A stretch of DNA of 64,000 nucleotides from Actinomadura sp. KC06 (lineage in GTDB: Bacteria; Actinomycetota; Actinomycetes; Streptosporangiales; Streptosporangiaceae). The stretch is from NCBI RefSeq assembly GCF_004348735.1, contig NZ_SMKT01000001.1:124001-188000 (forward strand). Direction: 5' to 3'. Made by a program: the position numbers and the translations under genes. Of this stretch, positions 53,840 to 64,000 are shown piece after piece (positions within the stretch are counted from its first letter, which is position 1; each line of letters opens with the position of its first letter). Under the pieces are notes generated by a model, which made no database searches, was not told where the DNA came from, and saw nothing but the letters and a program-made list of their open reading frames with translations.

Positions 53840-54733
53840 TCATGGCAGTTCGGAAATGGCCTCTTGAAGGTCGTCGAATGCCGGATGAGGGAGGGATAGT
53901 CCGCCCAGGGCGTACAGAAGAGCGGATCGGCCGCGGTCGTCGTCCACGCAGGGACGAAGGATGCAGTAGGCGTCCATCATCGCGTCCGGCTGGCGCAGGA
54001 TAACGGCGCGGAGATCGAAAGGGAGGGCGGCCACGAGTGCGTCGCGTCCCTCGGCGGTATCGAGTGGGGAGGCACCGAGCAGGTGCGCGGCGACGGCCGA
54101 GACGTCCTCGAAGGCGACGCCCGACCGGGGCGCGCGGTCCGGCGGGACGCCAAGGAGGCGAACCCAGGCCCGGGTCCGTGTCTCCTTCGACCGGATGCGG
54201 AGCCGCTCGTAATCGGACGGGTCCGGACCTCCCAGGTCAGGCCGTACGACGTCCTCGTAGAGCCGGTCCGAGAGGATCACCGAGAGGCGCGCGCCCGACT
54301 GCTGTACACGCCGCTTGAAGAGGGGTGCATCCAACAGCCGGAAGGCCCGGATCACGGTGTCGCCGAGCACGCCGTATTCGTCGGAGAGGATTAGGCCGAA
54401 ATCGAGCGCCACGCGTAACCGCAGGCGCGCGCCGGGACGGGCCAGGTCGTGCTGGCGCCGAATCTCGTCTTCCAGCCGATCGACCGTACTCGTCACCAGG
54501 CCCTCCACTGAGGAGCGGGGCGGTGGGACGAGGAACAGGCCGTCGCCGCGGTCCTCGTGATAGCACTCGTCGAAAGGGATGCCGGTCGAGTCGAGAGCCG
54601 CACGCGTCCGCGAGTAGAGCTGCTCACGGAGATACCGCTGGACGTGCCCGCGACGTGCGCCGAAGGCGACGATGTCGCACGCGAGGATGGCGCGCTGGCC
54701 AGCCGGGCGCGCGGAGACCCGGGCATCGCGCAC
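53840..54733 (-). CDS. Nucleotide-cyclase-like protein with probable effector-associated domain
   Basis: The 297-residue protein begins with ILACDIVAFGARRGHVQRYLREQLY and later CYHEDRGDGLFLVPP, LRLRVALDFGLILSDEYGVLGDTVIRAFRLLDA, which follow the order of metal-binding Asp, GDG and ribose-contacting region of class III nucleotide cyclases. Some catalytic positions are not evident, so it could be inactive. The last 85 residues (VSAVAAHLLGASPLDTAEGRD, LPFDLRAVILRQPDAMMDAY) resemble effector-associated domains that pair proteins in conflict systems. The start is a GTG with AGGAGAGG upstream. It is divergent from an XRE gene. Confidence 0.65.
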   Translation of the reverse strand: MRDARVSARPAGQRAILACDIVAFGARRGHVQRYLREQLYSRTRAALDSTGIPFDECYHEDRGDGLFLVPPPRSSVEGLVTSTVDRLEDEIRRQHDLARPGARLRLRVALDFGLILSDEYGVLGDTVIRAFRLLDAPLFKRRVQQSGARLSVILSDRLYEDVVRPDLGGPDPSDYERLRIRSKETRTRAWVRLLGVPPDRAPRSGVAFEDVSAVAAHLLGASPLDTAEGRDALVAALPFDLRAVILRQPDAMMDAYCILRPCVDDDRGRSALLYALGGLSLPHPAFDDLQEAISELP

Positions 54734-54977: not shown

Positions 54978-55856
54978 ATGGTCATGGCCAGCGATCACCA
55001 GGACGAGGCGCGGAGCACCCGCGAGCGACTCGCCTCCGAGCTGCGGCGGATGCGCGCCCTGTCGGGACTGTCCGGACGCGACCTCGCCCAGCGGCTCGGC
55101 ATCAGCCAGTCGAAGGTCTCCCGGATCGAGTCGGGCGCAACGATGCCCTCGCTCCCAGAGGTCACCGGGTGGGCGGCGGCAATGGACTCCACGGAGGAGA
55201 CCGCGCGGCGGCTGGTGGCCCTCACCGAGGCCGCCTTCACCGAGGTGAGCGCCTGGCGCACCGCACTGCGCGACCGGCCACACCTTCAGGACCAGGTGCT
55301 CGACAGGGAGAACCGGACCAGCAGATCGCAGACATTCCAGCCGTCCGTGGTGCCGGGTCTCCTGCAGACCGCCGAATACGCCCGCCGGGTCTTCGCCCTC
55401 TTCGACGAGGTCCCCTATGGCGAGGAGGAACTGGCTGCCGCCGTCGCCAGCCGGCTGAACCGCCAACTCGCCCTCTACCAGGAAGAACGGCGATTCGAAT
55501 TCGTGATCACCGAGGCGGCGTTGCGCTGGCGGCCCGGTCCTGCACTTCTGCTGCGGGCGCAGATCGACCGCATCGCCTCGCTGAGCACGCTGGAGAACGT
55601 GCGCATCGGGGTCGTACCGAGTGATGCCGAGGCGCTCACCTACCTCTCGCACGGGTTCGTCATCGCCTATGGCGGTGCGGAGAACGAGGCGCAGGTCACG
55701 GTCGAGGCGGCCCACGCCAAGCTCAGCATCACCGGGCCCGAGGACGTCGAGCTCTACCGGCGCCGCTGGGCCTTGTTGTCGCGGATGGCCTTGTTCGGCG
55801 ACGACGCCCGCGCCTTCCTTGCCCGGCTCGCGAACACGATGCGGGAGGAGGCATGA
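54978..55856 (+). CDS. Scr1-like XRE-family DNA-binding protein
   Basis: The 292-residue protein has an N-terminal XRE helix-turn-helix (LSGRDLAQRLGISQSKVSRIESG) and the DUF5753-type domain (FQPSVVPGLLQTAEYARRVF, VITEAALRWRPGP, ENVRIGVVPSDAEAL). GAGGAGGA lies 8 nt before the ATG. It is convergent with, not coupled to, a DUF397 gene, unlike the pair at 40280-41475. Repeats at 54909-54948 may be its operator. It may control the neighbouring signalling operon. Confidence 0.9.
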   Translation: MVMASDHQDEARSTRERLASELRRMRALSGLSGRDLAQRLGISQSKVSRIESGATMPSLPEVTGWAAAMDSTEETARRLVALTEAAFTEVSAWRTALRDRPHLQDQVLDRENRTSRSQTFQPSVVPGLLQTAEYARRVFALFDEVPYGEEELAAAVASRLNRQLALYQEERRFEFVITEAALRWRPGPALLLRAQIDRIASLSTLENVRIGVVPSDAEALTYLSHGFVIAYGGAENEAQVTVEAAHAKLSITGPEDVELYRRRWALLSRMALFGDDARAFLARLANTMREEA

Positions 55857-55926: not shown

Positions 55927-56157
55927 TCAGCTCATGGCGTCGCCGAGCCGGGCGATGTCGAACTCGCCCAGCCGGGCGCCCGCGAGGAACGCGACCCACT
56001 CCGCGACGGTGAACACCAGCCACGGACCCTCCGGGTCCTTGGAGTCGCGCAGGACCACGGCCGTCAGCAGGCTCGCCTCGACGCAGTCGTCGGCGCCCTC
56101 GCTGAGCGAGCTCTTGGTCCAGCCGGCCTCCTTGATGAGCTTGTGCAGCGCGTTCAT
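55927..56157 (-). CDS. DUF397 domain protein
   Basis: The 76-residue protein has the full DUF397 pattern: GWTKSSLSEGADDCVEA followed by VVLRDSKDPEGPWLVFTVAEW. It is a small probable partner of the adjacent Scr1-like XRE protein. The genes are convergent, so they need not be made at the same time. The last 20 residues (RLGEFDIARLG) follow the domain. It lies 180 nt from the BTAD gene in the divergent direction. Confidence 0.9.
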   Translation of the reverse strand: MNALHKLIKEAGWTKSSLSEGADDCVEASLLTAVVLRDSKDPEGPWLVFTVAEWVAFLAGARLGEFDIARLGDAMS

Positions 56158-56338
56158 TGTCGTCCTCTCTCCGATTGACGGTGTCTTGCTTCTTCTGCTT
56201 CAAGCATGGAAAGCGGACCCGGTAAGAAAGGCGGTAAAGGAAGGGGGCCGGTTCCCGGTACGGCCTCCGGTAAGTGCGGCCGGTGCACCGTTATCGCGTG
56301 CCGGAACGCTCGTGAGCTGATTCGTGGGGGTGAGCGCG

Positions 56339-57583
56339 ATGGGGATGCCTGGCGACGATATGGAATTCCGCCTGCTCGGCAAGGTCGAAGCATTGGTGCG
56401 AGGGCGCCCCGCTGCCCTGGGCAGACCGATGGACCGGCTGGCGCTCGCGGCGCTGTTGCTCGCCCCCGGCGGATCGCTGACGCCTGGGGAACTCGCCGGA
56501 CGCCTCTGGGAGGAGCCGCCTGAGACCGCCCCGGATCTGGCCCGCGACTACCTCAAGAAGCTACGCCGGCATCTGAACACCGCGGTGCCGGGGGCCGGCG
56601 CGCTCCTGCCTCCCCACGATGGCGGCTACCGGATGCTCGTCCCGCGCCACCGGGTGGACGCCCACCGGTTCCTCGACACGGCGGACCAGGCTCAGCAGCA
56701 TGTCACGAGGGAGCCCGCGCGGGCCGCCGAGCTGTACCGAGCCGCCCTTGCCGAGTGGCCGTCCGACGCGTCCGGCCCCTGGGTCGTAGAGCCGCTGGCC
56801 GGGCTGCCCGGTCCGTGGGCCGAGATCGAACGTACCGCCCTGTGCAACCGGCACCGCGAGGCCCTGACGACCTGCGCTGAGATCGAGATCCGGGTCGGCG
56901 GCCACGAGCAGAGGCTCATCCCCGAACTGGACCGCCTGCTCCGCGCGGCGCCGCTGGACGAGCGGGTCGCCGGACTGCTCATGCACGCCCTCGTCCGGGC
57001 CGGACGGCGCGGTGACGCACTCGAAGTCTTCGGCCTGACGCGCCGTCGCCTCCTCGACGAGCTGGGCCAGGACCCTGCCCCCGAGCTCACCCGGATGCAC
57101 CAGCGTGTCCTGAACGATGACCCCACGCTCAACGATCCCCGACCTGCACCTTTGGGAGCACCGATGCCCTCCACCACCACCCCCGACCACGACGACCAGC
57201 CAGGTGAGGAGACCGGGCACGAGCTCGCCGGAACCGTCGCGCGCCTCGTCGCCGAAGCGAGCAGGAGCGGCGGGACAGGTTCGTCCGGGACGGTGCTCAT
57301 CGGCAGGCTGCGGGAGCGCTTCGAGCAGGACACCCCGGCCGAGGCGGCGCTGGCCTGGCTGGTGCGGGAACCGTACAACGCCGACGCTCTCGCCGCGCTG
57401 GAGAGAGCCCTGCTCGCCGCGATCGCTCGAGACGCCGAGTTCGCGGCGGAGCTTCGGGCTCTCGCCACGCCCACGCCCGTACGAGACGAGCGCGGCTCGG
57501 TCTCGATCCAGGCCCAGTCGATCAGCAAGTCCAGCGTCTTCACCAGCGATGTCCACATTTCTGGCGACTTCGTCATCAACTGA
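56339..57583 (+). CDS. wHTH-BTAD (AfsR/SARP-like) protein with C-terminal beta motif
   Basis: The 414-residue protein has an OmpR-type winged helix (DMEFRLLGKVEALVRGRPAAL, LTPGELAGRLWEEPPE) and a BTAD helical domain (VDAHRFLDTADQA, AAPLDERVAGLLMHALVRAGRRGDALEVF). A linker follows, then a helical region around ALAWLVREPYNADALAALE, and finally a beta-rich tail (SVSIQAQSISKSSVF, SDVHISGDFVIN). The ATG at 56339 has GGGGGTGAG upstream. BTAD regulators activate secondary metabolism, but here the tail and operon suggest a signalling role. It is the first gene of the PP2C-kinase-vWA operon. Confidence 0.8.
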   Translation: MGMPGDDMEFRLLGKVEALVRGRPAALGRPMDRLALAALLLAPGGSLTPGELAGRLWEEPPETAPDLARDYLKKLRRHLNTAVPGAGALLPPHDGGYRMLVPRHRVDAHRFLDTADQAQQHVTREPARAAELYRAALAEWPSDASGPWVVEPLAGLPGPWAEIERTALCNRHREALTTCAEIEIRVGGHEQRLIPELDRLLRAAPLDERVAGLLMHALVRAGRRGDALEVFGLTRRRLLDELGQDPAPELTRMHQRVLNDDPTLNDPRPAPLGAPMPSTTTPDHDDQPGEETGHELAGTVARLVAEASRSGGTGSSGTVLIGRLRERFEQDTPAEAALAWLVREPYNADALAALERALLAAIARDAEFAAELRALATPTPVRDERGSVSIQAQSISKSSVFTSDVHISGDFVIN

Positions 57584-57621
57584 CGCGACCGCCGGCGTCC
57601 CCGGCACGGAGGAAGACAGCG

Positions 57622-59940
57622 ATGACCGATCGCGCGGACGGCAGGTCCGACGAGGCCGACCCCCGAGTACCGCCCGGGCCGCGCCCCGGAGCAGCCGAGA
57701 AGGGCGAACGGCCAAGACCGGGCCCGGAGCACGGACCGGCGTTCGAGGGCGACGGGGACCGCGACGCGGGCAAGGCCGCGGCCGGGAAAGGAGAGGAGCG
57801 GCGCGATCCGGTGTCCGAGGCCGCCCGCGAACTGCACGGCGCGGAGGAGGCGGAGGCACGCGCAGACAACGCCCGGCGGGGCGAGATCCTCGCCGAAGCG
57901 TGGGAACGGTTGGAGCGTTTCCGCGAGCGCGGTGACCTCTACATCGACAAGCTCACGATGTTCAACGGCCAAGTGGGCGTCGATGGCGGCTTCAGCATCG
58001 GTTCAGGCCCCGAGGCCAGGTCCGGGACCGAGCGGAAGCTGGTCAAGCTCGACGAGATGACGCTCCGGACGCATCTCGACCACTACGTCCGGCCCGCGAA
58101 CTACGCGGACGCGGTGCGGCGGCTCACCGACCTGCACCTGCTCGTCCTGGCCTGCCCGGCGGGCACCGGACGTAACGCGGCGGCGATCAACCTGCTCACC
58201 GACGCCGGCGCACCACGCTGCTACAAGATCACCGACCTCGGCGTCGTGCACTCGGGCGACTGGACGCCACCGGATCCCGGCGCCGGGTACCTCGTCGATC
58301 TCGACGTCCTGGCCAAGGGAGGGGGAGCGCTCGCCGCGGGCGGCATCGACGAGTCCTGGATCGAGGCGACGGCCGCGCGTGTCACCGCCGCCGGCGGCTT
58401 CCTGGTCGTGCTGACCGGGCCGCCCCGCGGCGCGCTCATCGAAACCGCGGCCCACTCACCGCACGTGATGGTCTCACTCGGCGACCTCGACCCCGTGGCG
58501 GTGCTGATCCGCCGGGTGCTCGGTCCAGAACCCGACGCGGCGGCCCTGGCAGGGCTGCGCGCCGAACTCGATGGCGCGGGCGCGCCGCAGCTGCTCGCCG
58601 AACACCCAGGGCCGCGCACCGCCGTCCGGCTCGCCTCCGCGTACGCGTCCAAGGGCGACCTGGCGGCGGCGGTGCAGGCGTTACGCGACCCGACCGGGCA
58701 GGTGCACGCCTGGTTCGAGAAGCACCGGGCCGCGGAGACGATCTGCTTCGCGCTGGCCACAGCGGCGCTGGAAGGCGCCGGCTACCTGACCGTCTCCGAC
58801 GCCGCAGTCGATCTCTATCGGTTGCTGGAGCCGGAAGCCGTGTACCCGCTCGACCTCAGGTTCCGTGAGCGCCTCAGGACTGACCACGCCTGGATCGAAC
58901 TGGTACCCGGCGGCGGCGGAACCGATCCGGGACGCCCGTCGGGGCCGAGCGTCCGCTTCACCAGTGATCTGCTCCAGGCGGCCGTGCTCACCCACGCCTG
59001 GTCCTTCCTGGACGGCGGCCGAACAGCGCTGCTGCGCTGGCTGCGCGCTCTGACCGACCATCGCGACATCGGTGTCCGGGCCCGCGCGGCCGTCAGCGCC
59101 GGGCTGATCGCACGCGATGACTTCGACCACGCCATGCACCGGTTCCTGCGGAGCTGGGCCGGGGACGAGAAGCGGAAGACGCGCGAGGCCGCGGCCGCCG
59201 CGCTCGGCATCGTGGCGAGTGAGCCGGAGCTGTACGAGCCGGTGTGGGAGCTGCTGGAGTCCTGGTCGCGCGAAGGGGGCTCCGGCTTCCAGAACCGGTT
59301 GCGACTTACCGCCGCCGACACCGTCGGCAGCCCCTTTGGCGCCGTCCGGCCAGAGCGGTCCCTGGGTTTGCTAGCCCGCGTGCTCGGTGACCCGGAGTGG
59401 CGCGGCCTGGCCGCTGTCGGCCTCAGCGTGCTGCGGCTGACCGAACTCGGGCGCGAGGACGAGGTTCTGGGCGCCCTGCTGGAGTGGTCGCATCCCCAGG
59501 ACGACTCGGCCATGGTGGCGCAGGCGCTCTCAGTGTCCGTGTTCACCCTGCTTGCGCCCGTCCCGTGGACACACGTCCCCGGAGGGGTACCGGGGCGCCC
59601 GCTGCTGATCGCCGACAACAGGCGGCACCACCGTCACATCGAGGAGCTCTGGGCCCGCGCGCTCGCCCGCAAACCCGCCCAGACGCACGCGCTCGACGCG
59701 CTCCGCGACTTTCTCGACGAGCACGCGGATCGGGAGCCGGACGCCCTGGCGGCGATGCGGACCGTCCTCGTCGGCGTCGCCGCCCGGGGGGAACGGCACC
59801 ACCGGCGGCTCGAGTGGTACCTCGGCCGCTGGGAGAGCGATCCCGACCGGCCGTCGCGCTCCGCCGCGACCTTGCGCCGCGCCCTGACCGCCCGGCCCGA
59901 TCATCGCCGCCCCGCCCACGACTTCAACGGCCGACTCTAA
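57622..59940 (+). CDS. Large P-loop-like, helical-repeat protein
   Basis: The 772-residue protein has a disordered charged N-terminus (about 1-90), a short beta motif (LYIDKLTMFNGQVGVDGGFS, residues 104-125) similar to the BTAD protein tail, then an NTPase-like region. The P-loop candidate is CPAGTGRNAA (from residue 178), with Arg replacing Lys, followed by a hydrophobic strand LVDLDVL. Residues 330-770 are helical, HEAT-like (VRARAAVSAGLIARDDFDHAM, TREAAAAALGIVASEPELYE). I infer a STAND-like or NTPase-derived scaffold, possibly catalytically weak. GGAGGAAG precedes the ATG. It does not match a family I can name. Confidence 0.6.
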   Translation: MTDRADGRSDEADPRVPPGPRPGAAEKGERPRPGPEHGPAFEGDGDRDAGKAAAGKGEERRDPVSEAARELHGAEEAEARADNARRGEILAEAWERLERFRERGDLYIDKLTMFNGQVGVDGGFSIGSGPEARSGTERKLVKLDEMTLRTHLDHYVRPANYADAVRRLTDLHLLVLACPAGTGRNAAAINLLTDAGAPRCYKITDLGVVHSGDWTPPDPGAGYLVDLDVLAKGGGALAAGGIDESWIEATAARVTAAGGFLVVLTGPPRGALIETAAHSPHVMVSLGDLDPVAVLIRRVLGPEPDAAALAGLRAELDGAGAPQLLAEHPGPRTAVRLASAYASKGDLAAAVQALRDPTGQVHAWFEKHRAAETICFALATAALEGAGYLTVSDAAVDLYRLLEPEAVYPLDLRFRERLRTDHAWIELVPGGGGTDPGRPSGPSVRFTSDLLQAAVLTHAWSFLDGGRTALLRWLRALTDHRDIGVRARAAVSAGLIARDDFDHAMHRFLRSWAGDEKRKTREAAAAALGIVASEPELYEPVWELLESWSREGGSGFQNRLRLTAADTVGSPFGAVRPERSLGLLARVLGDPEWRGLAAVGLSVLRLTELGREDEVLGALLEWSHPQDDSAMVAQALSVSVFTLLAPVPWTHVPGGVPGRPLLIADNRRHHRHIEELWARALARKPAQTHALDALRDFLDEHADREPDALAAMRTVLVGVAARGERHHRRLEWYLGRWESDPDRPSRSAATLRRALTARPDHRRPAHDFNGRL

Positions 59941-59949
59941 GGACGTCCC

Positions 59950-61011
59950 GTGTACCAACCGAGATACTCGACCTTCGACCCCCTCATCGAGCACAAGCCG
60001 GTCTCGATGCTCAGGCTGCTGAGCCCGCTGCGCGCTCCGGCGCCCGGCACCGCGCTCGTACTCGTCCCCCGGGAGGGGGCGCCGATCACCGTCCGGCACG
60101 GCGAGCCGGTGCCCGCCGCCCATTACGGCGTCCACCAGTACAGCTGCCTGGTCACGCTCGCCGAGCACGCGCTGGCGTTCGAGATCGCGCTGGTCAGCCG
60201 CGACCCGGGGTTCGTCTTCCGCAGCCGGGTCATCGTCCATGTCCACGTCGGGGAACCCGCCTTGGTCGTGTCGCGCGGCATACGCGACGTCGGCGCCACT
60301 CTCTACGAGCCGATCAAGCACATGCTGCGGCCCGTCGCACGGAACTTCGACATCGCCGAGTTCCACCAGGCGGACGAAGCGCTGAACACCGTGCTCGGCG
60401 ACTTCCACGGCGACTCGGCGCTGCGCCTGCGCAACGCCACCGTCGAGCTACTGCCCGATGAGGACGAGGTCGCCAACTCCGCCCGTTCCTACCGCGAGGT
60501 CACCCGCGAGACCCGGCTTGGCGCAATGCGCCGCGACCGCCATCTGGACATGATGCGCCGTGAGGGCACCGAGGGGATGCTGGCCGAGATCTTCGAGCGC
60601 GAGGGGCCGTCCAAGGTGCTGGACTGGATCGCGCATGCGGAGGCGACCGAGCGCGCCGAACTGCTCAGGCTCTTCCAGCAGATGATGAACCGCGCCGGAG
60701 TCGACCGCGAGCCGTTCGACCATCTTGAGGCCGAGCGCCAGGTCGTGGACCGGCTGACCGGCGGGTCCAGTGTGGCGTTCGGCGGGACGCGGCGGGTGAG
60801 TCGGGTCCGCGGCAGCCTGCCGCCCCGGCCACCGGAGACGCCGCGGACCGGGCCGGTGGACGCGGCCAAGGCGCCCGCCTCACCGCAGAGCAGGTACCCG
60901 GCCGGCCCATCGCAGCCGCCCGGGCCCCCCGAGGACGAGCCGCTCGAACCGCCCCGAGAGGACGCGGGCCCGCCCCGTTCGCGCGTCCGGGGCGCACGGC
61001 CGACGGAGTGA
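59950..61011 (+). CDS. SPFH/band-7-like protein with disordered tail
   Basis: The 353-residue protein has beta strands ALVLVPREGAPITVRHGEP, FEIALVSRDPGFVFRSRVIVHVHV, then an alpha-helical stretch with basic/acidic heptads (REVTRETRLGAMRRDRHLDMMRR), recalling SPFH/band-7 domains and their coiled coil. The last 90 residues are Pro/Arg-rich and disordered. There is no membrane segment at the N-terminus. The start is GTG with AAGGACG upstream, 9 nt after the preceding stop. The fold is a tentative reading; it could be a scaffold for the phosphatase or kinase. Confidence 0.5.
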   Translation: MYQPRYSTFDPLIEHKPVSMLRLLSPLRAPAPGTALVLVPREGAPITVRHGEPVPAAHYGVHQYSCLVTLAEHALAFEIALVSRDPGFVFRSRVIVHVHVGEPALVVSRGIRDVGATLYEPIKHMLRPVARNFDIAEFHQADEALNTVLGDFHGDSALRLRNATVELLPDEDEVANSARSYREVTRETRLGAMRRDRHLDMMRREGTEGMLAEIFEREGPSKVLDWIAHAEATERAELLRLFQQMMNRAGVDREPFDHLEAERQVVDRLTGGSSVAFGGTRRVSRVRGSLPPRPPETPRTGPVDAAKAPASPQSRYPAGPSQPPGPPEDEPLEPPREDAGPPRSRVRGARPTE

Positions 61012-61024
61012 CGAGGAGGAACCG

Positions 61025-62071
61025 ATGAGAATAGCGTCCAGCACGGGGGCCGGGCCCGGTCATGCAGTCTGGTACCACCAGGACGCGGCCTTAACGGCGG
61101 TCGGCGTCTGGACGGAGCGCCGTGCCGACGCCGGCGAGGACGCCGAGCCGCTCCTCATGCACCACAGGCCGACGGAAACCGGCCTCATCGCCGTCTTCGA
61201 CGGTTCCGGCGGTTCGGGAGCCGCGATCGCCCACGAGTCCGCGGCGGGGATGCCGAGGACGGGCGCCTGGGTCGGCTCGCGGGTCGCGCGGGCCGCGTTC
61301 GAGACCTGGTTCGGTGAGACGGCGGCCGGTCGCGGGCTGGACCGCGACGCCACCGCACTGACCAACCGGCTGGCGCGGTCGCTATCCCTCATGCGTCCCA
61401 CCCGGGCGCCCCGGCTGGTCGGCCGGGTCCGCCGGGAACTGCCGACCACCATGGCCGCGCTCCGCTACCGGCGGCGCGGCGGGACTCTGGAGTGCCGGGC
61501 GCTGTGGGCGGGCGACTCGCGCGCCTACCTGCTGACCCCTGAGGCTGGACTCCAGGCGCTCACCCGCGACCACACCGACGAGGCCGACGCGCTGGAGCAA
61601 CTCCTCCAGGACCCGCCGATGACCAACGTGATCTGCGCCGACCGGCCGTTCCGCCTCGACCAGGCGGACAGCGAAATCCCCCTGCCGTCCGTCCTTGTCT
61701 GCGCCACCGACGGCTTCTTCGGCTACGTCGACACGCCCGCTCACTTCGAGTGCCATCTGCTGCGCGAACTCCGTGACGCCAGGGACGCCGCCGACTGGGC
61801 CGACCTGCTCTCCGCACGCGTCACCGGCTACACCGCCGACGACGCGTCGCTGAGCCTGGTGGCCATCGGCTACCGCGACTTCGAGCATCTACGCGATGCC
61901 TTCTCGCGCCGCACGAACGATGTCCTGCGCGCCCACTGGCCGGACGGCCCGCGGCTCACGGAACCGCAGTTCCGCTCGTGGCGGTCCCGGTCCTGGCACG
62001 AGTATCGGCCCGGCTACGAGCGGTTGATGCCGGCCCTGCCGGGCGCGCGGCCGGACGGAGGTCGCCGATGA
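61025..62071 (+). CDS. PP2C-type serine/threonine phosphatase
   Basis: The 348-residue protein has the PP2C metal-binding motifs in order: AVFDGSGGSG (Asp59), ALWAGDSRAYLL (Asp164), VCATDGFFGY (Asp229) and ADDASLSLVAIG (Asp272/273). PP2C phosphatases remove phosphate from Ser/Thr using manganese. The His of the usual DGHGG is replaced by Ser. GAGGAGGAA precedes the ATG. Its stop overlaps the kinase ATG (ATGA), which supports a writer/eraser pair with the vWA protein as target or adaptor. Confidence 0.85.
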   Translation: MRIASSTGAGPGHAVWYHQDAALTAVGVWTERRADAGEDAEPLLMHHRPTETGLIAVFDGSGGSGAAIAHESAAGMPRTGAWVGSRVARAAFETWFGETAAGRGLDRDATALTNRLARSLSLMRPTRAPRLVGRVRRELPTTMAALRYRRRGGTLECRALWAGDSRAYLLTPEAGLQALTRDHTDEADALEQLLQDPPMTNVICADRPFRLDQADSEIPLPSVLVCATDGFFGYVDTPAHFECHLLRELRDARDAADWADLLSARVTGYTADDASLSLVAIGYRDFEHLRDAFSRRTNDVLRAHWPDGPRLTEPQFRSWRSRSWHEYRPGYERLMPALPGARPDGGRR

Positions 62072-63120
62072 AGGCGGGCGATGTCATGCACGGCTACCAC
62101 ATCACCACCGAGCCGACGAACGAGGGCGGCGGCAAATGCGTCTGGGCGTTCGCCGAGCGCGAGGGCCGGGTGTACTTCGTCAAACGCTTCCTGGAACCGA
62201 AGCGGCCGCGGGGAGGCGGCGGGGGGAGCGAAGCGAGCAGGCGGGCCCGCATGCGGGAATGCGCGGAGTTCGAGGACCGGCACCGATCGATCATGGAGCG
62301 CCTGACGCCTGACGCGGTTGGTGCCGGGAACCTGGTACTGGCGGTCGACTTCTTCCACGAGCGGTCGAGCTACTACAAGGTGACCGAGCGGGTGGACACC
62401 GCGTCCATGACCAAGCCGCACGCACTCGACACCCGCAACAAGAGTGTCCTGCTGCGCACGCTGGCGCTCAGCCTGCGGCTGCTGCACGACCTCGGAATCG
62501 TCCACGGCGACCTCAAACCCGCCAACGTCCTGGTGCAGCAGCGTGCGGCGAACGCGTTCCACACCGCCAAGCTGATCGACTTCGACGACGCATACCTGTC
62601 GGGGAGCCCGCCGGCGCCCGGCGTCATCGCGGGCGACTCGATGTACGGAGCGCCCGAATGGCTGCGCTACCTGCGCTCGGACACGGCGACCGACCCGGCC
62701 GAGCTGACGACCGGCTGCGACGTGTTCTCGCTAGGCCTGATCACCCACCTCTACCTCACCGGCGCGCTGCCCGCGTACGACACCGGCGCCCACGCTTCGC
62801 CGGCCGAGGCCGTGGACGCGGGCGCCCCGCTGCGCGCCGACGAGCGTCTGGCCCCGGTCATGCGGGAGCTGATCGAGGCCATGACGACGGGCGACCCGGA
62901 GCAGCGGCCCGGTACCGGCGCGTTCTTCGAGGCGCTGCGGGACCCGAACATCTGCCTGTTGGACCGCCGGACCACCGTCGCGCGCCCTTCCCGGATCCGG
63001 GTCGGCGCTCACGACCGGGGCGGTGCGGAGCCCGGCCGGCGCCCAGACGAGGCCGGCTCGTCCGGGCAGGGAGGCACGGGCTCTCAAGACATACAGAAGG
63101 GACCCTTCCATGACCTATAG
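62068..63120 (+). CDS. Serine/threonine protein kinase-like protein
   Basis: The 350-residue protein shows the kinase fold: VYFVKRF with Lys39, HGDLKPANVLV with catalytic Asp148 in place of HRD, LIDFDDAYL with Asp171 (DFD instead of DFG), and GAPEWLRYL as the APE motif. It lacks the usual glycine-rich loop (TEPTNEGGGKCVWAF). It should phosphorylate Ser/Thr, most likely on operon partners. The C-terminal 50 residues are disordered. It overlaps both neighbours: 4 nt with the phosphatase and 11 nt with the vWA gene. Confidence 0.87.
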   Translation: MKAGDVMHGYHITTEPTNEGGGKCVWAFAEREGRVYFVKRFLEPKRPRGGGGGSEASRRARMRECAEFEDRHRSIMERLTPDAVGAGNLVLAVDFFHERSSYYKVTERVDTASMTKPHALDTRNKSVLLRTLALSLRLLHDLGIVHGDLKPANVLVQQRAANAFHTAKLIDFDDAYLSGSPPAPGVIAGDSMYGAPEWLRYLRSDTATDPAELTTGCDVFSLGLITHLYLTGALPAYDTGAHASPAEAVDAGAPLRADERLAPVMRELIEAMTTGDPEQRPGTGAFFEALRDPNICLLDRRTTVARPSRIRVGAHDRGGAEPGRRPDEAGSSGQGGTGSQDIQKGPFHDL

Positions 63121-63811
63121 CAGCGCGGGAAACCTGCAGTACGCGGTCGACATCGTCCTGTGCATCGACGTCACCGACAGCATGTGGCCGGTGCTCGACG
63201 CGGTGAAGAAGAGCGCGATGTCGTTCCACCAGCGGCTCGACAGCGTCATGGCCGACAAGGGGAAGGCCATCAGCCAACTCCGGCTCCGTGTCATCGCCTT
63301 CCGCGACTTCGGCGACCATCCCGAGAGCGCCATCGAGCAGACCGGGTTCCTGGTCTTCCCCGACCAGGCCCCCGAGTTCGACGCCTTCGTGCGGCGGCTG
63401 CTGCCCCTGGGCGGCGGGGACGTTCCCGAATCCGGGCTCGAAGCGCTCGCTCTCGCCATCGCCTCACCGTGGGAGCGCGGCCTCGACCGCAGGCGGCACA
63501 TCATCGTCATGTTCACCGATGCCCCGGCGCACCCGCTGGGCGATCCCCGGTCGCGCGCCGCCCACACCTACCCGCCGGAGGTTCCGGCGAACCTGGACGA
63601 CCTGTTCGAGCGGTGGGGTTACGCGAGCAGCACCACCGCGACCATGGAGAACAGCGCCAAGCGCCTCGTACTGTTCGCGCCCGACTGCGAGCCCTGGGCC
63701 GACCTGGTCGAGGAGTGGAACCAGACGCTGCTGTTCCCGTCCGCCGCCGGCGCGGGACTGGAGGAGTTCGAGATGGACGAGATCGTCAACACCATTGTGA
63801 ACAGCCTGTGA
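63110..63811 (+). CDS. TerY-like von Willebrand factor A domain protein
   Basis: The 233-residue protein is essentially one vWA domain. The MIDAS motif reads DVTDSM (Asp20, Thr22, Ser24), with a later GGGDVPESG (loop with Asp) and IVMFTDAPAH completing the metal site. Such proteins bind partners through the metal site. The order PP2C, kinase, vWA is the TerY-P triad known near tellurite/stress genes in bacteria. AGAAGGG precedes the ATG. It lies inside the 3' end of the kinase gene, so the three are tightly coupled. Confidence 0.88.
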   Translation: MTYSSAGNLQYAVDIVLCIDVTDSMWPVLDAVKKSAMSFHQRLDSVMADKGKAISQLRLRVIAFRDFGDHPESAIEQTGFLVFPDQAPEFDAFVRRLLPLGGGDVPESGLEALALAIASPWERGLDRRRHIIVMFTDAPAHPLGDPRSRAAHTYPPEVPANLDDLFERWGYASSTTATMENSAKRLVLFAPDCEPWADLVEEWNQTLLFPSAAGAGLEEFEMDEIVNTIVNSL

Positions 63812-63999
63812 TCATACGACGCCGACGGCGCGGTGGGCTGCCGGACGCCGCCGCGGCGGAGAAGGGCGCCGGGCCCCGAACCGACGGCACCGACTGGATC
63901 AGTTTCCGGCCCCGGCCCGACACCGAGGCGCTGCTGGAGGTCCTGCACGACCGCCTGCGCGCCGCGGCCGCGGAGGTGACGGCCCATGACGGTCGCTGA
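63808..63999 (+). CDS. Short ORF between vWA gene and next gene
   Basis: A 63-residue frame starts at GTG 63808, overlapping the vWA stop, and ends at TGA 63997-63999. It reads VIIRRRRRGGLPDAA then GTDWISFRPRPDTEALLEVLHDRLRAAAAEV. The basic N-terminus and helical C-terminus are protein-like. It could be a small linker protein in the operon or only an overlapping frame; the stop lies 14 nt inside the following gene. Confidence 0.5.
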   Translation: MIIRRRRRGGLPDAAAAEKGAGPRTDGTDWISFRPRPDTEALLEVLHDRLRAAAAEVTAHDGR

Positions 64000-64000
64000 G
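63986..64000 (+). CDS. Start of a further operon gene, truncated by window edge
   Basis: An ATG at 63986-63988, preceded by GGAGGTGA at the right distance, opens a frame MTVAE that reaches the window end. It indicates the operon continues. Nothing can be said about the product. Confidence 0.5.

Follow-up and report, generated by a model that had tools for sequence, protein, structure and literature searches.

What connects a SARP-type regulator, an NLR-like protein with HEAT repeats, an SPFH protein, and a set of phosphatase, kinase, and vWA proteins when all are encoded in a single operon? The operon in question closes the window, i.e., the whole 64,000 nucleotide stretch of Actinomadura sp. 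KC06 DNA analyzed here (contig positions 124001-188000; the host genome is 9.38 Mb), and it runs past the window's 3' end. We think it probable that its eight genes, designated g1 to g8, encode an NLR/effector pair of BASS amyloid-signaling architecture, scaffolded by the SPFH protein and gated by a TerY-P-like module, as parts of a membrane-linked signalosome. If this is true, a single operon unites NLR/effector motif pairs, TerY-P phospho-switches, and SPFH scaffolds, three bacterial themes that our searches turned up only in separate descriptions. Its features, in window coordinates, are:

56339..57583, plus strand: g1, winged helix and BTAD (SARP-type) protein with a helical part and a C-terminal motif (BTAD, 3e-31; alternative GTG start at 56324)
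57512..57580, plus strand: g1 C-terminal tail motif AQSISKSSVFTSDVHISGDFVIN (match to the g2 N-terminal motif)
57622..59940, plus strand: g2, NLR-like protein of 772 amino acids, nSTAND3 NTPase-like with HEAT repeats (Pfam over the family, AlphaFold, Foldseek)
57931..58002, plus strand: g2 N-terminal motif GDLYIDKLTMFNGQVGVDGGFSIG (top position of the g1-tail profile)
58156..58173, plus strand: g2 P-loop PAGTGR, a Walker A motif with R for K (alignment of 29 sequences)
59950..61011, plus strand: g3, SPFH/Band 7 protein, low-complexity in its tail and lacking a clear hydrophobic anchor (Pfam over the family, Foldseek)
60979..60993, plus strand: g3 tail motif SRVRG, with a second copy from residue 284 (conserved in homologues)
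61025..62071, plus strand: g4, PP2C-type phosphatase (motif conservation; Pfam E of 0.26 for the window protein)
62068..63120, plus strand: g5, Ser/Thr protein kinase, catalytic residues present (Pkinase, 5.6e-22)
63110..63811, plus strand: g6, stand-alone vWA protein with the metal ion-dependent adhesion site (MIDAS) DxTxS (VWA_4, 1.9e-8)
63808..63999, plus strand: g7, protein of 63 amino acids (C-terminal DWIxFxP...TEaLl segment of a larger family)
63986..64000, plus strand: first bases of g8 (contig 187986-188630), RanBP2-type zinc finger, Pro-rich linker, and C-terminal membrane helix (Pfam over the family, cysteine pattern, hydropathy)

The g1 to g6 genes are all on the plus strand and are closely spaced: gaps of 38, 9, and 13 nucleotides separate g1/g2, g2/g3, and g3/g4, whereas g4 and g5 share an ATGA (4 nucleotides, at 62068), and g5 and g6 overlap by 11 nucleotides (63110-63120). 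The GTG start of g7 lies 4 nucleotides before the end of the g6 stop codon, and g8, which follows g7, is mostly outside the window. A plus-strand operon with these same overlaps had been described in an initial annotation made from the sequence alone, and its guesses at the proteins (BTAD, P-loop/helical repeat, SPFH, PP2C, kinase, and vWA) were right, as judged by Pfam over the families, Foldseek, and conserved motifs.

That annotation missed a motif of ~24 residues that occurs both in the C-terminal tail of g1 and in g2, where it lies just ahead of the NTPase domain; the zinc-finger membrane protein g8, which lies past the window, was likewise missing from its parts list. In the window, the g1 tail AQSISKSSVFTSDVHISGDFVIN resembles GDLYIDKLTMFNGQVGVDGGFSIG of g2, and in the Streptomyces type the g1 tail AALIKNAQVFNEKVEIKGDWNIS resembles SGTRIGTLALFNDTVSFGGGFHTG of g2. 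A search of 1191 sequences, shuffled ones among them, with a hidden Markov model of g1 tails gave g2 proteins as the top nine matches, with weak E-values of which one was <0.01. When a profile of 40 g1 tails was scored over 2603 alignment positions (eight families, with g1 minus its tails), a test independent of the pattern by which the g2 stretches were located, the best position was the g2 N-terminal motif, with a z of 7.0, and the next reached 4.4. Working in the opposite direction, a profile of the g2 motif (37 stretches) was compared with the tails of 2352 open reading frames (ORFs); 33 of the 37 g1 tails took ranks 1-33, that of the window being 28th.

The g1 slot itself is exchangeable. 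BTAD was found in all ten long g1 homologues scanned; the slot of Streptomyces and Nocardiopsis is taken by a protein of 131-237 amino acids that lacks BTAD but has the tail motif. These short forms are hydrophobic over an N-terminal stretch (hydropathy 1.24-1.85) and, by eye, include a helical part, and their likeness to Bell effectors is one of description, with no Pfam Bell match. In Amycolatopsis sacchari (L087) the slot is filled by a TIR protein (TIR_2, 3.9e-10), whose tail is similar yet ranks only 104 of 2352 in the g2-motif profile test. Because the slot is exchangeable between BTAD, Bell-like, and TIR proteins, and because its tail motif is matched by the nSTAND3 protein, the BTAD protein looks like the output end and not a sensor. 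This suggests that an NLR-like receptor encoded by a different gene can have a SARP-type transcription regulator as its output.

BASS/Bell-NLR amyloid signaling pairs were reportedly set out in Dyrka 2020. In the accessible text of two papers (PMC7889193, PMC8086366), BASS pairs are adjacent genes of filamentous actinobacteria that share a motif, C-terminal in the effector and N-terminal in the NLR, the effectors being small Bell-like or TIR proteins. The window operon has the adjacent genes, the motif in effector tail and NLR N-terminus, and a STAND/NLR-type receptor, a comparison made by description; it differs in its nSTAND3 plus HEAT receptor, its BTAD output, and its SPFH protein and kinase/phosphatase/vWA/zinc-finger module. 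Exchange of the g1 slot for a TIR or Bell-like protein supports a BASS-type pair, such proteins being the effectors in the pairs described in those parts of PMC7889193.

The same genes could be read as a split AfsK/AfsR-like developmental or metabolic regulator, in which g1 would be the SARP and g2 its NOD/HEAT inhibitor, kinase and phosphatase would tune the two, and the output would be antibiotic or developmental control, not defense or death. AfsK is the Ser/Thr kinase of the AfsK/AfsR system, and a SARP regulator, a NOD-type NTPase, and a Ser/Thr kinase are common to that system and the window operon; by analogy, the BTAD form suggests a split AfsR. The g1 protein does match the NCBIfam AfsR model (6.3e-40), but only over residues 10-284 and with 137 bits against a cut-off of 1430, and membership was rejected. 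As far as the text of PMC10936776 was available, AfsR is a phosphorylatable protein that carries SARP, NOD, and TPR on a single chain; its SARP part is inhibited by the other two until ATP binds. In the window, by contrast, SARP and NTPase are separate and joined by a motif, and the repeats are HEAT, not TPR. Many relatives also have no SARP, the slot being without BTAD in Streptomyces and Nocardiopsis and occupied by TIR in Amycolatopsis, and neither the SPFH nor the membrane zinc-finger part has an AfsR counterpart. Upstream of g1, the search for SARP boxes returned two weak direct-repeat families and no 11-bp series. Overall, we judge a split AfsR to be unlikely, although it retains some credit.

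Returning to the NLR/effector pair, the receptor assignment of g2 comes largely from its family: at E<=0.1, Pfam found nSTAND3 in 18 of 29 members (best 1.1e-7) and HEAT_2 in 22 of 29, whereas the window protein alone gave HEAT_2 and no nSTAND3 match. Its AlphaFold model has a mean confidence (pLDDT) of 82.3, falling below 50 at residues 107-137, and its best PDB matches by Foldseek, which are weak (E 2.3e-4), are armadillo/HEAT arrays. The Walker A lysine is replaced by arginine in all 29 aligned g2 sequences; related proteins in four other loci (L027, L028, L108, L110) keep the lysine.

Such g2-like proteins occur elsewhere in the genus in other operons, where the tail of a neighbor matches their N-terminus with a different motif (L026, L028, L029); in L028, both a BTAD tail and a cyclase tail match the nSTAND3 N-terminus. 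Four further loci (L107-L110) have the same pairing of tail and N-terminus. A class-wide search with an SPFH profile added four weaker matches (L118-L121), all next to a cyclase-like gene and an nSTAND-type gene, with clear motif pairs in L119 and L120, a pair by eye in L121, and none seen in L118. Overall, about six motif types can be distinguished by eye, and those other than that of the window pair with the nSTAND3 protein of their own operon or of the same type (L027, L028, L029, L107-L110, L119, L120). For 13 pairs the mean cognate score was 52.6, versus 34.3 when permuted, and none of 20,000 permutations was as high, even though at least three operons with a wrongly cut N-terminal region (L026, L118, L121) were kept; the 13 are not independent, because those of the same type are related to each other. 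In an unmasked ranking against the 2352 tails, the operon's own tail came first in four of 11 related loci (L028, L029, L107, L108), same-type tails led in L109 and L027, and the own tail was not first in L023-L026 and L110, a result partly hurt by wrongly cut regions or contig ends.

Pfam found no cyclase family in the 13 cyclase-like members, but in the PDB their profile matches cyclases of class III (best 3.5e-6). Of 15 related loci, 13 have an SPFH-like ORF close to the nSTAND gene, and a profile comparison links these SPFH-like proteins to g3 with 97.6% probability. Judged from sequence, a cyclase with an nSTAND3 protein and matched motifs, mostly accompanied by SPFH, appears to be a module general to actinobacteria; the window operon resembles a version of it in which another protein has taken the place of the cyclase and the kinase module has been added. 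As a separate observation, three of these loci (L108:4711-11379, L109:4592-11626, and L121:3334-9810) encode a Crp-type regulator, a cyclase-like protein with a tail motif, a matching nSTAND3-like protein, an SPFH protein, and a DUF4407-like membrane protein; the Crp-type call is from cNMP_binding in L109 and by similarity in L108 and L121, and DUF4407 was matched by Pfam in L028 only. Operons of this Crp/cyclase/nSTAND3/SPFH composition are possibly a cyclic-nucleotide signaling system of their own.

Another reading is that the motif is no more than an ordinary docking segment, with both tails binding a third partner such as SPFH and no homotypic or amyloid-like contact between them. In its favor, an SPFH-like protein is near the nSTAND3 gene in most of the related loci, and the g2 motif falls within a stretch of low model confidence. 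However, motifs match inside operons and differ between types, which is the signature of like-with-like pairing, and the two loci in which SPFH was not found (L029, L107) nonetheless have clear motif pairs. We judge simple docking to be quite unlikely.

The SPFH assignment of g3 also depends on its family, Band_7/SPFH being found in 16 of 35 members (Pfam, E<=0.5; best 7.8e-5) with no match for the window member. Foldseek gave prohibitin, stomatin, and HflK/HflC as its best folds, from E 1.4e-7. The best 19-residue hydropathy is 1.48 in the window protein and 0.47-1.63 across 51 members. A tail motif, [ST]R[VLI]RG, is present in 47 of 51 g3 homologues, versus 0-2 occurrences in each other family, and is a possible docking site for the kinase or the vWA protein. 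The motif is kept even in shortened forms of g3.

Catalytic residues are conserved in the phosphatase and the kinase. In 55 homologues of g4, the sequences GEDAE, FDGxGG, AGDSR, TDG, and DDAS, which we take to be the PP2C motifs, are kept at >=93%; in 57 homologues of g5, the catalytic K, HGDLKPxN, and DFD are likewise kept at >=93%. The MIDAS of g6 is kept in its homologues, and among the matches listed g6 is 62-88% identical to seven operon homologues. In most relatives the protein between g6 and g8 is mostly 134-242 amino acids long; the copies closest to the window's g7 (L021, L038, L039) are similarly reduced to the C-terminal segment. A PH-like fold for this protein was a guess that neither Pfam (three members) nor a PDB profile search backed. 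Zn_ribbon_RanBP was found in 18 of 24 members of the g8 family (Pfam, E<=0.1; best 2.8e-13); g8 of the window has no Pfam match, but its cysteine pattern fits the RanBP2 type, as does that of 53 of 59 members. The best hydropathy is 1.42-3.39 in 57 of the 59 (those >100 amino acids), at least 1.6 in 56, and 2.84 in the window. An outer domain, beta-rich by eye, is present in the consensus of 24 members and absent from the window copy.

A vWA protein, a PP2C phosphatase, and a Ser/Thr kinase with a zinc-binding partner make up the TerY-P triad, according to the passages available of PMC11090510, which cites Anantharaman 2012. The window operon has all four components, but its zinc finger is of RanBP2 type and is on a separate membrane protein, not fused to the kinase. 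The RanBP2-type pattern occurs in none of 57 kinases, and the window kinase is without a zinc-binding Pfam match; lacking the C-terminal zinc part, it is not TerY in the strict sense, and no PADLOC or NCBIfam model matched the window vWA or PP2C as TerY-P, the vWA being VWA_4 in Pfam. Kaur 2020 (PMC7159879) contains, in the text available, the nearest published statement found, namely kinase, PP2C, and vWA sets in GAP1-N2 systems. The third theme of those systems is similar in combining, as far as that text goes, an active actinobacterial kinase, a PP2C, and a stand-alone vWA with zinc-binding and membrane parts. Membership was rejected: g1-g6 and the g8 family have no GAP1 or GTPase Pfam match, and there is an nSTAND3/SPFH/motif pair instead. 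The same partial source lists vWA, helical repeats, and Band 7 as recurrent parts of vWA-MoxR ternary systems, to which the operon was judged not to belong, having no MoxR-type AAA+ ATPase. In archaea, a network of kinases and a phosphatase includes the RanBP2-type zinc-finger protein ArnA and its vWA partner ArnB (PMC6509490, available text), a phosphorylation-linked precedent for a zinc-finger protein and a vWA protein under such control; that text gives ArnA an FHA domain also, mentions no membrane helix, and has the archaellum as output.

A stand-alone set of vWA, PP2C, kinase, and RanBP2 zinc finger is found on the Herpetosiphon plasmid pHAU01 (L117:7980-11093), and a Calothrix plasmid (L116:7989-13333) has vWA and kinase followed by a 1042 amino acid protein with a PP2C match. 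Because it stands alone on both plasmids, the kinase module is a portable cassette of the TerY-P kind. These two plasmid homologues of the vWA protein are distant and come from other phyla; no g2 match was found on plasmids, nor any vWA relative in viral contigs.

Conservation of gene order, a check named in the initial annotation, was assessed in 56 actinobacterial loci obtained from a genome-contig scan with the vWA alignment, in which g6 is present by construction; six were cut off too near the vWA gene to judge (L048, L058, L059, L061, L067, L092), leaving 50. The order of the window, g1-g6 and g8, is kept in 36 of the 50. Seven have g3-g6 and g8, with a mostly shortened g3 (207-355 amino acids), and three have g4-g6 and g8, i.e., the triad without g1-g3. 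The locus with TIR in the g1 slot, L087, has g2-g6, with no g8 found. Of the others, L088 has g1-g3, g6, and g8; L093 has g3, g6, and g8; and L072 has g6 and g8. Thus, g4 and g5 accompany the vWA gene in 47 of 50 loci, and the triad is not normally found without the three upstream genes, so that the refutation named in the initial annotation does not apply. In variant Streptomyces loci without g1 and g2, an FHA-like protein (by eye) is encoded upstream of the kinase module (L079:6194-6985, L071:6893-7795); Pfam gave no match for that of L079. In L036/L093 (Actinomadura sp. NBRC 104412) and in L088 the operon is degraded or rearranged, with g3 leading directly into g6 and neither its phosphatase gene nor its kinase gene found.

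Pairwise distances of g2, g3, g4, g5, g6, and g8 correlate at 0.84-0.97 over 36 of 38 full operons (L075 and L081 were left out), as expected of one inherited unit, although species history alone also raises the values. In an independent check of 58 relatives, SPFH g3 (E<1e-20) and the vWA protein occurred in the same three genomes; one further g3 match, at E 9.7e-4, was above the threshold and dropped. At the same threshold, no g3 was found among 78 other genomes sampled across the class; the system is patchy. That the vWA, kinase, PP2C, and zinc finger are the whole machine, a TerY-P-like stress or defense switch with g1-g3 as loose passengers, is very unlikely given the fixed order in 36 of 50 loci and the distance correlations (high as shared ancestry alone would make these), even though g1 and g2 are missing beside the triad in ten of 50 loci, with g3 missing too in three of the ten, and the module stands alone on the two plasmids.

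In the NLR/effector reading that we favor, g2 would be a receptor-like hub in which an nSTAND3 NTPase fold is combined with a HEAT array. On activation, perhaps by an invader or envelope stress, its disordered N-terminal motif may template or bind the C-terminal motif of g1 by homotypic, amyloid-like coupling, and the g1 slot would then provide the output: transcriptional reprogramming by the SARP-type BTAD regulator in the window, and elsewhere the action of a Bell-like, putative membrane-active protein (Streptomyces) or a TIR protein (Amycolatopsis). The SPFH protein is the likeliest scaffold, as a presumed former of a ring or lattice; g4 and g5 would set the phosphorylation state of the assembly, whose members are the putative targets. 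The vWA protein g6 and g8, with its zinc finger, membrane helix, and, in many relatives, outer domain, might form a phosphorylation-dependent, membrane-facing part resembling ArnB/ArnA. The initial annotation had likewise envisaged a phosphorylation-gated switch; the tie between a TerY-P-like module and the BTAD, NTPase/helical-repeat, and SPFH proteins stands, whereas the roles it gave the BTAD protein (sensor) and the helical-repeat protein (scaffold) now seem less likely. The operon's parts list resembles cell-death signaling machines of fungi and animals.

Several observations weigh against this reading. The g2 stretches behind the 33 of 37 result were located by a pattern devised once the similarity was already known, and the remaining four g1 tails rank 198, 272, 1591, and 1854 of 2352. 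As single sequences, the window's own pair match modestly (33 versus 19.0 shuffled, p 0.005). In a naive pairwise ranking of 15 window-type loci (the sixteenth, L087, was left out), the cognate was at rank 1 in two and second and sixth in two more; the window pair was 35th, and the other ten were at 382-2138. Such single-sequence ranking is too noisy for the window motif type. ATP-driven switching is uncertain because of the invariant arginine at the Walker position of g2, and phosphorylation of AfsR in vitro hardly affects transcription activation and counteracts the effect of ATP (PMC10936776, available text). Because ten of 50 loci keep the kinase module without g1 and g2, the two modules are separable, and the defense context is weak because a BREX type 2 cluster adjoins the operon only in the window and L039 (Actinomadura craniellae), within the flanks compared.

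A wider generalization is tentative, and we hold it slightly more doubtful than credible: nSTAND3-HEAT receptors, usually with an SPFH scaffold, may constitute a widespread actinobacterial class of signalosomes in which homotypic motifs specific to each operon relay a prion-like signal to interchangeable outputs (nucleotide cyclase, SARP, Bell-like, TIR). The window would then hold the version under kinase/phosphatase/vWA/zinc-finger control, comparable in bacteria to a phosphorylation-gated necrosome or inflammasome, with transcription as its end point. The BTAD, Bell-like, TIR, and cyclase outputs and the several motif types are matched natural variants for studying motif-specific wiring of receptor to effector. 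No paper on this gene set was found among the open-access papers searched; each part has a precedent there, but for the way they are combined, and for so many types of paired motif, none was found.

The genes flanking the operon are:

53840..54733, minus strand: accessory gene, 297 amino acids, class III cyclase-like N-terminus and EAD2 C-terminus (divergent; Pfam EAD2, PDB profile search)
54978..55856, plus strand: accessory HTH-DUF5753 regulator (DUF5753, 2.1e-36; HTH_31, 8.4e-14)
55927..56157, minus strand: accessory ORF of 76 amino acids (sequence; cluster c18)
contig 188855-200000 and on, opposite strand: BREX type 2 cluster, not part of the operon (PADLOC, NCBIfam)

The strand switches after g8, and the BREX type 2 genes BrxHI, BrxD, PglZ, and PglY converge on the operon; PADLOC matches BrxHI, BrxD, PglZ, and BrxC-PglY, and NCBIfam gives BREX-2 PglZ at 7.4e-242. 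The initial annotation had proposed looking past 64,000 for a MoxR, caspase, or nuclease effector, and none of these was found in the operon. On the other side, the EAD2 match of the 53840..54733 protein (5.9e-5) scores 23.7 bits against a cut-off of 23.8, and its homologues lie beside the operon in seven loci including the window, with L022 and L063 representing one genome. In this Actinomadura group, EAD2 is found where related cyclases have the tail motif. The HTH-DUF5753 regulator gene is upstream of g1 in some of the loci. The 76 amino acid ORF is presumably DUF397-like (by eye), and its cluster c18 is present in seven of 58 loci, L022 and L063 being counted twice. Partial DNA matches to the window also occur elsewhere in its own genome.

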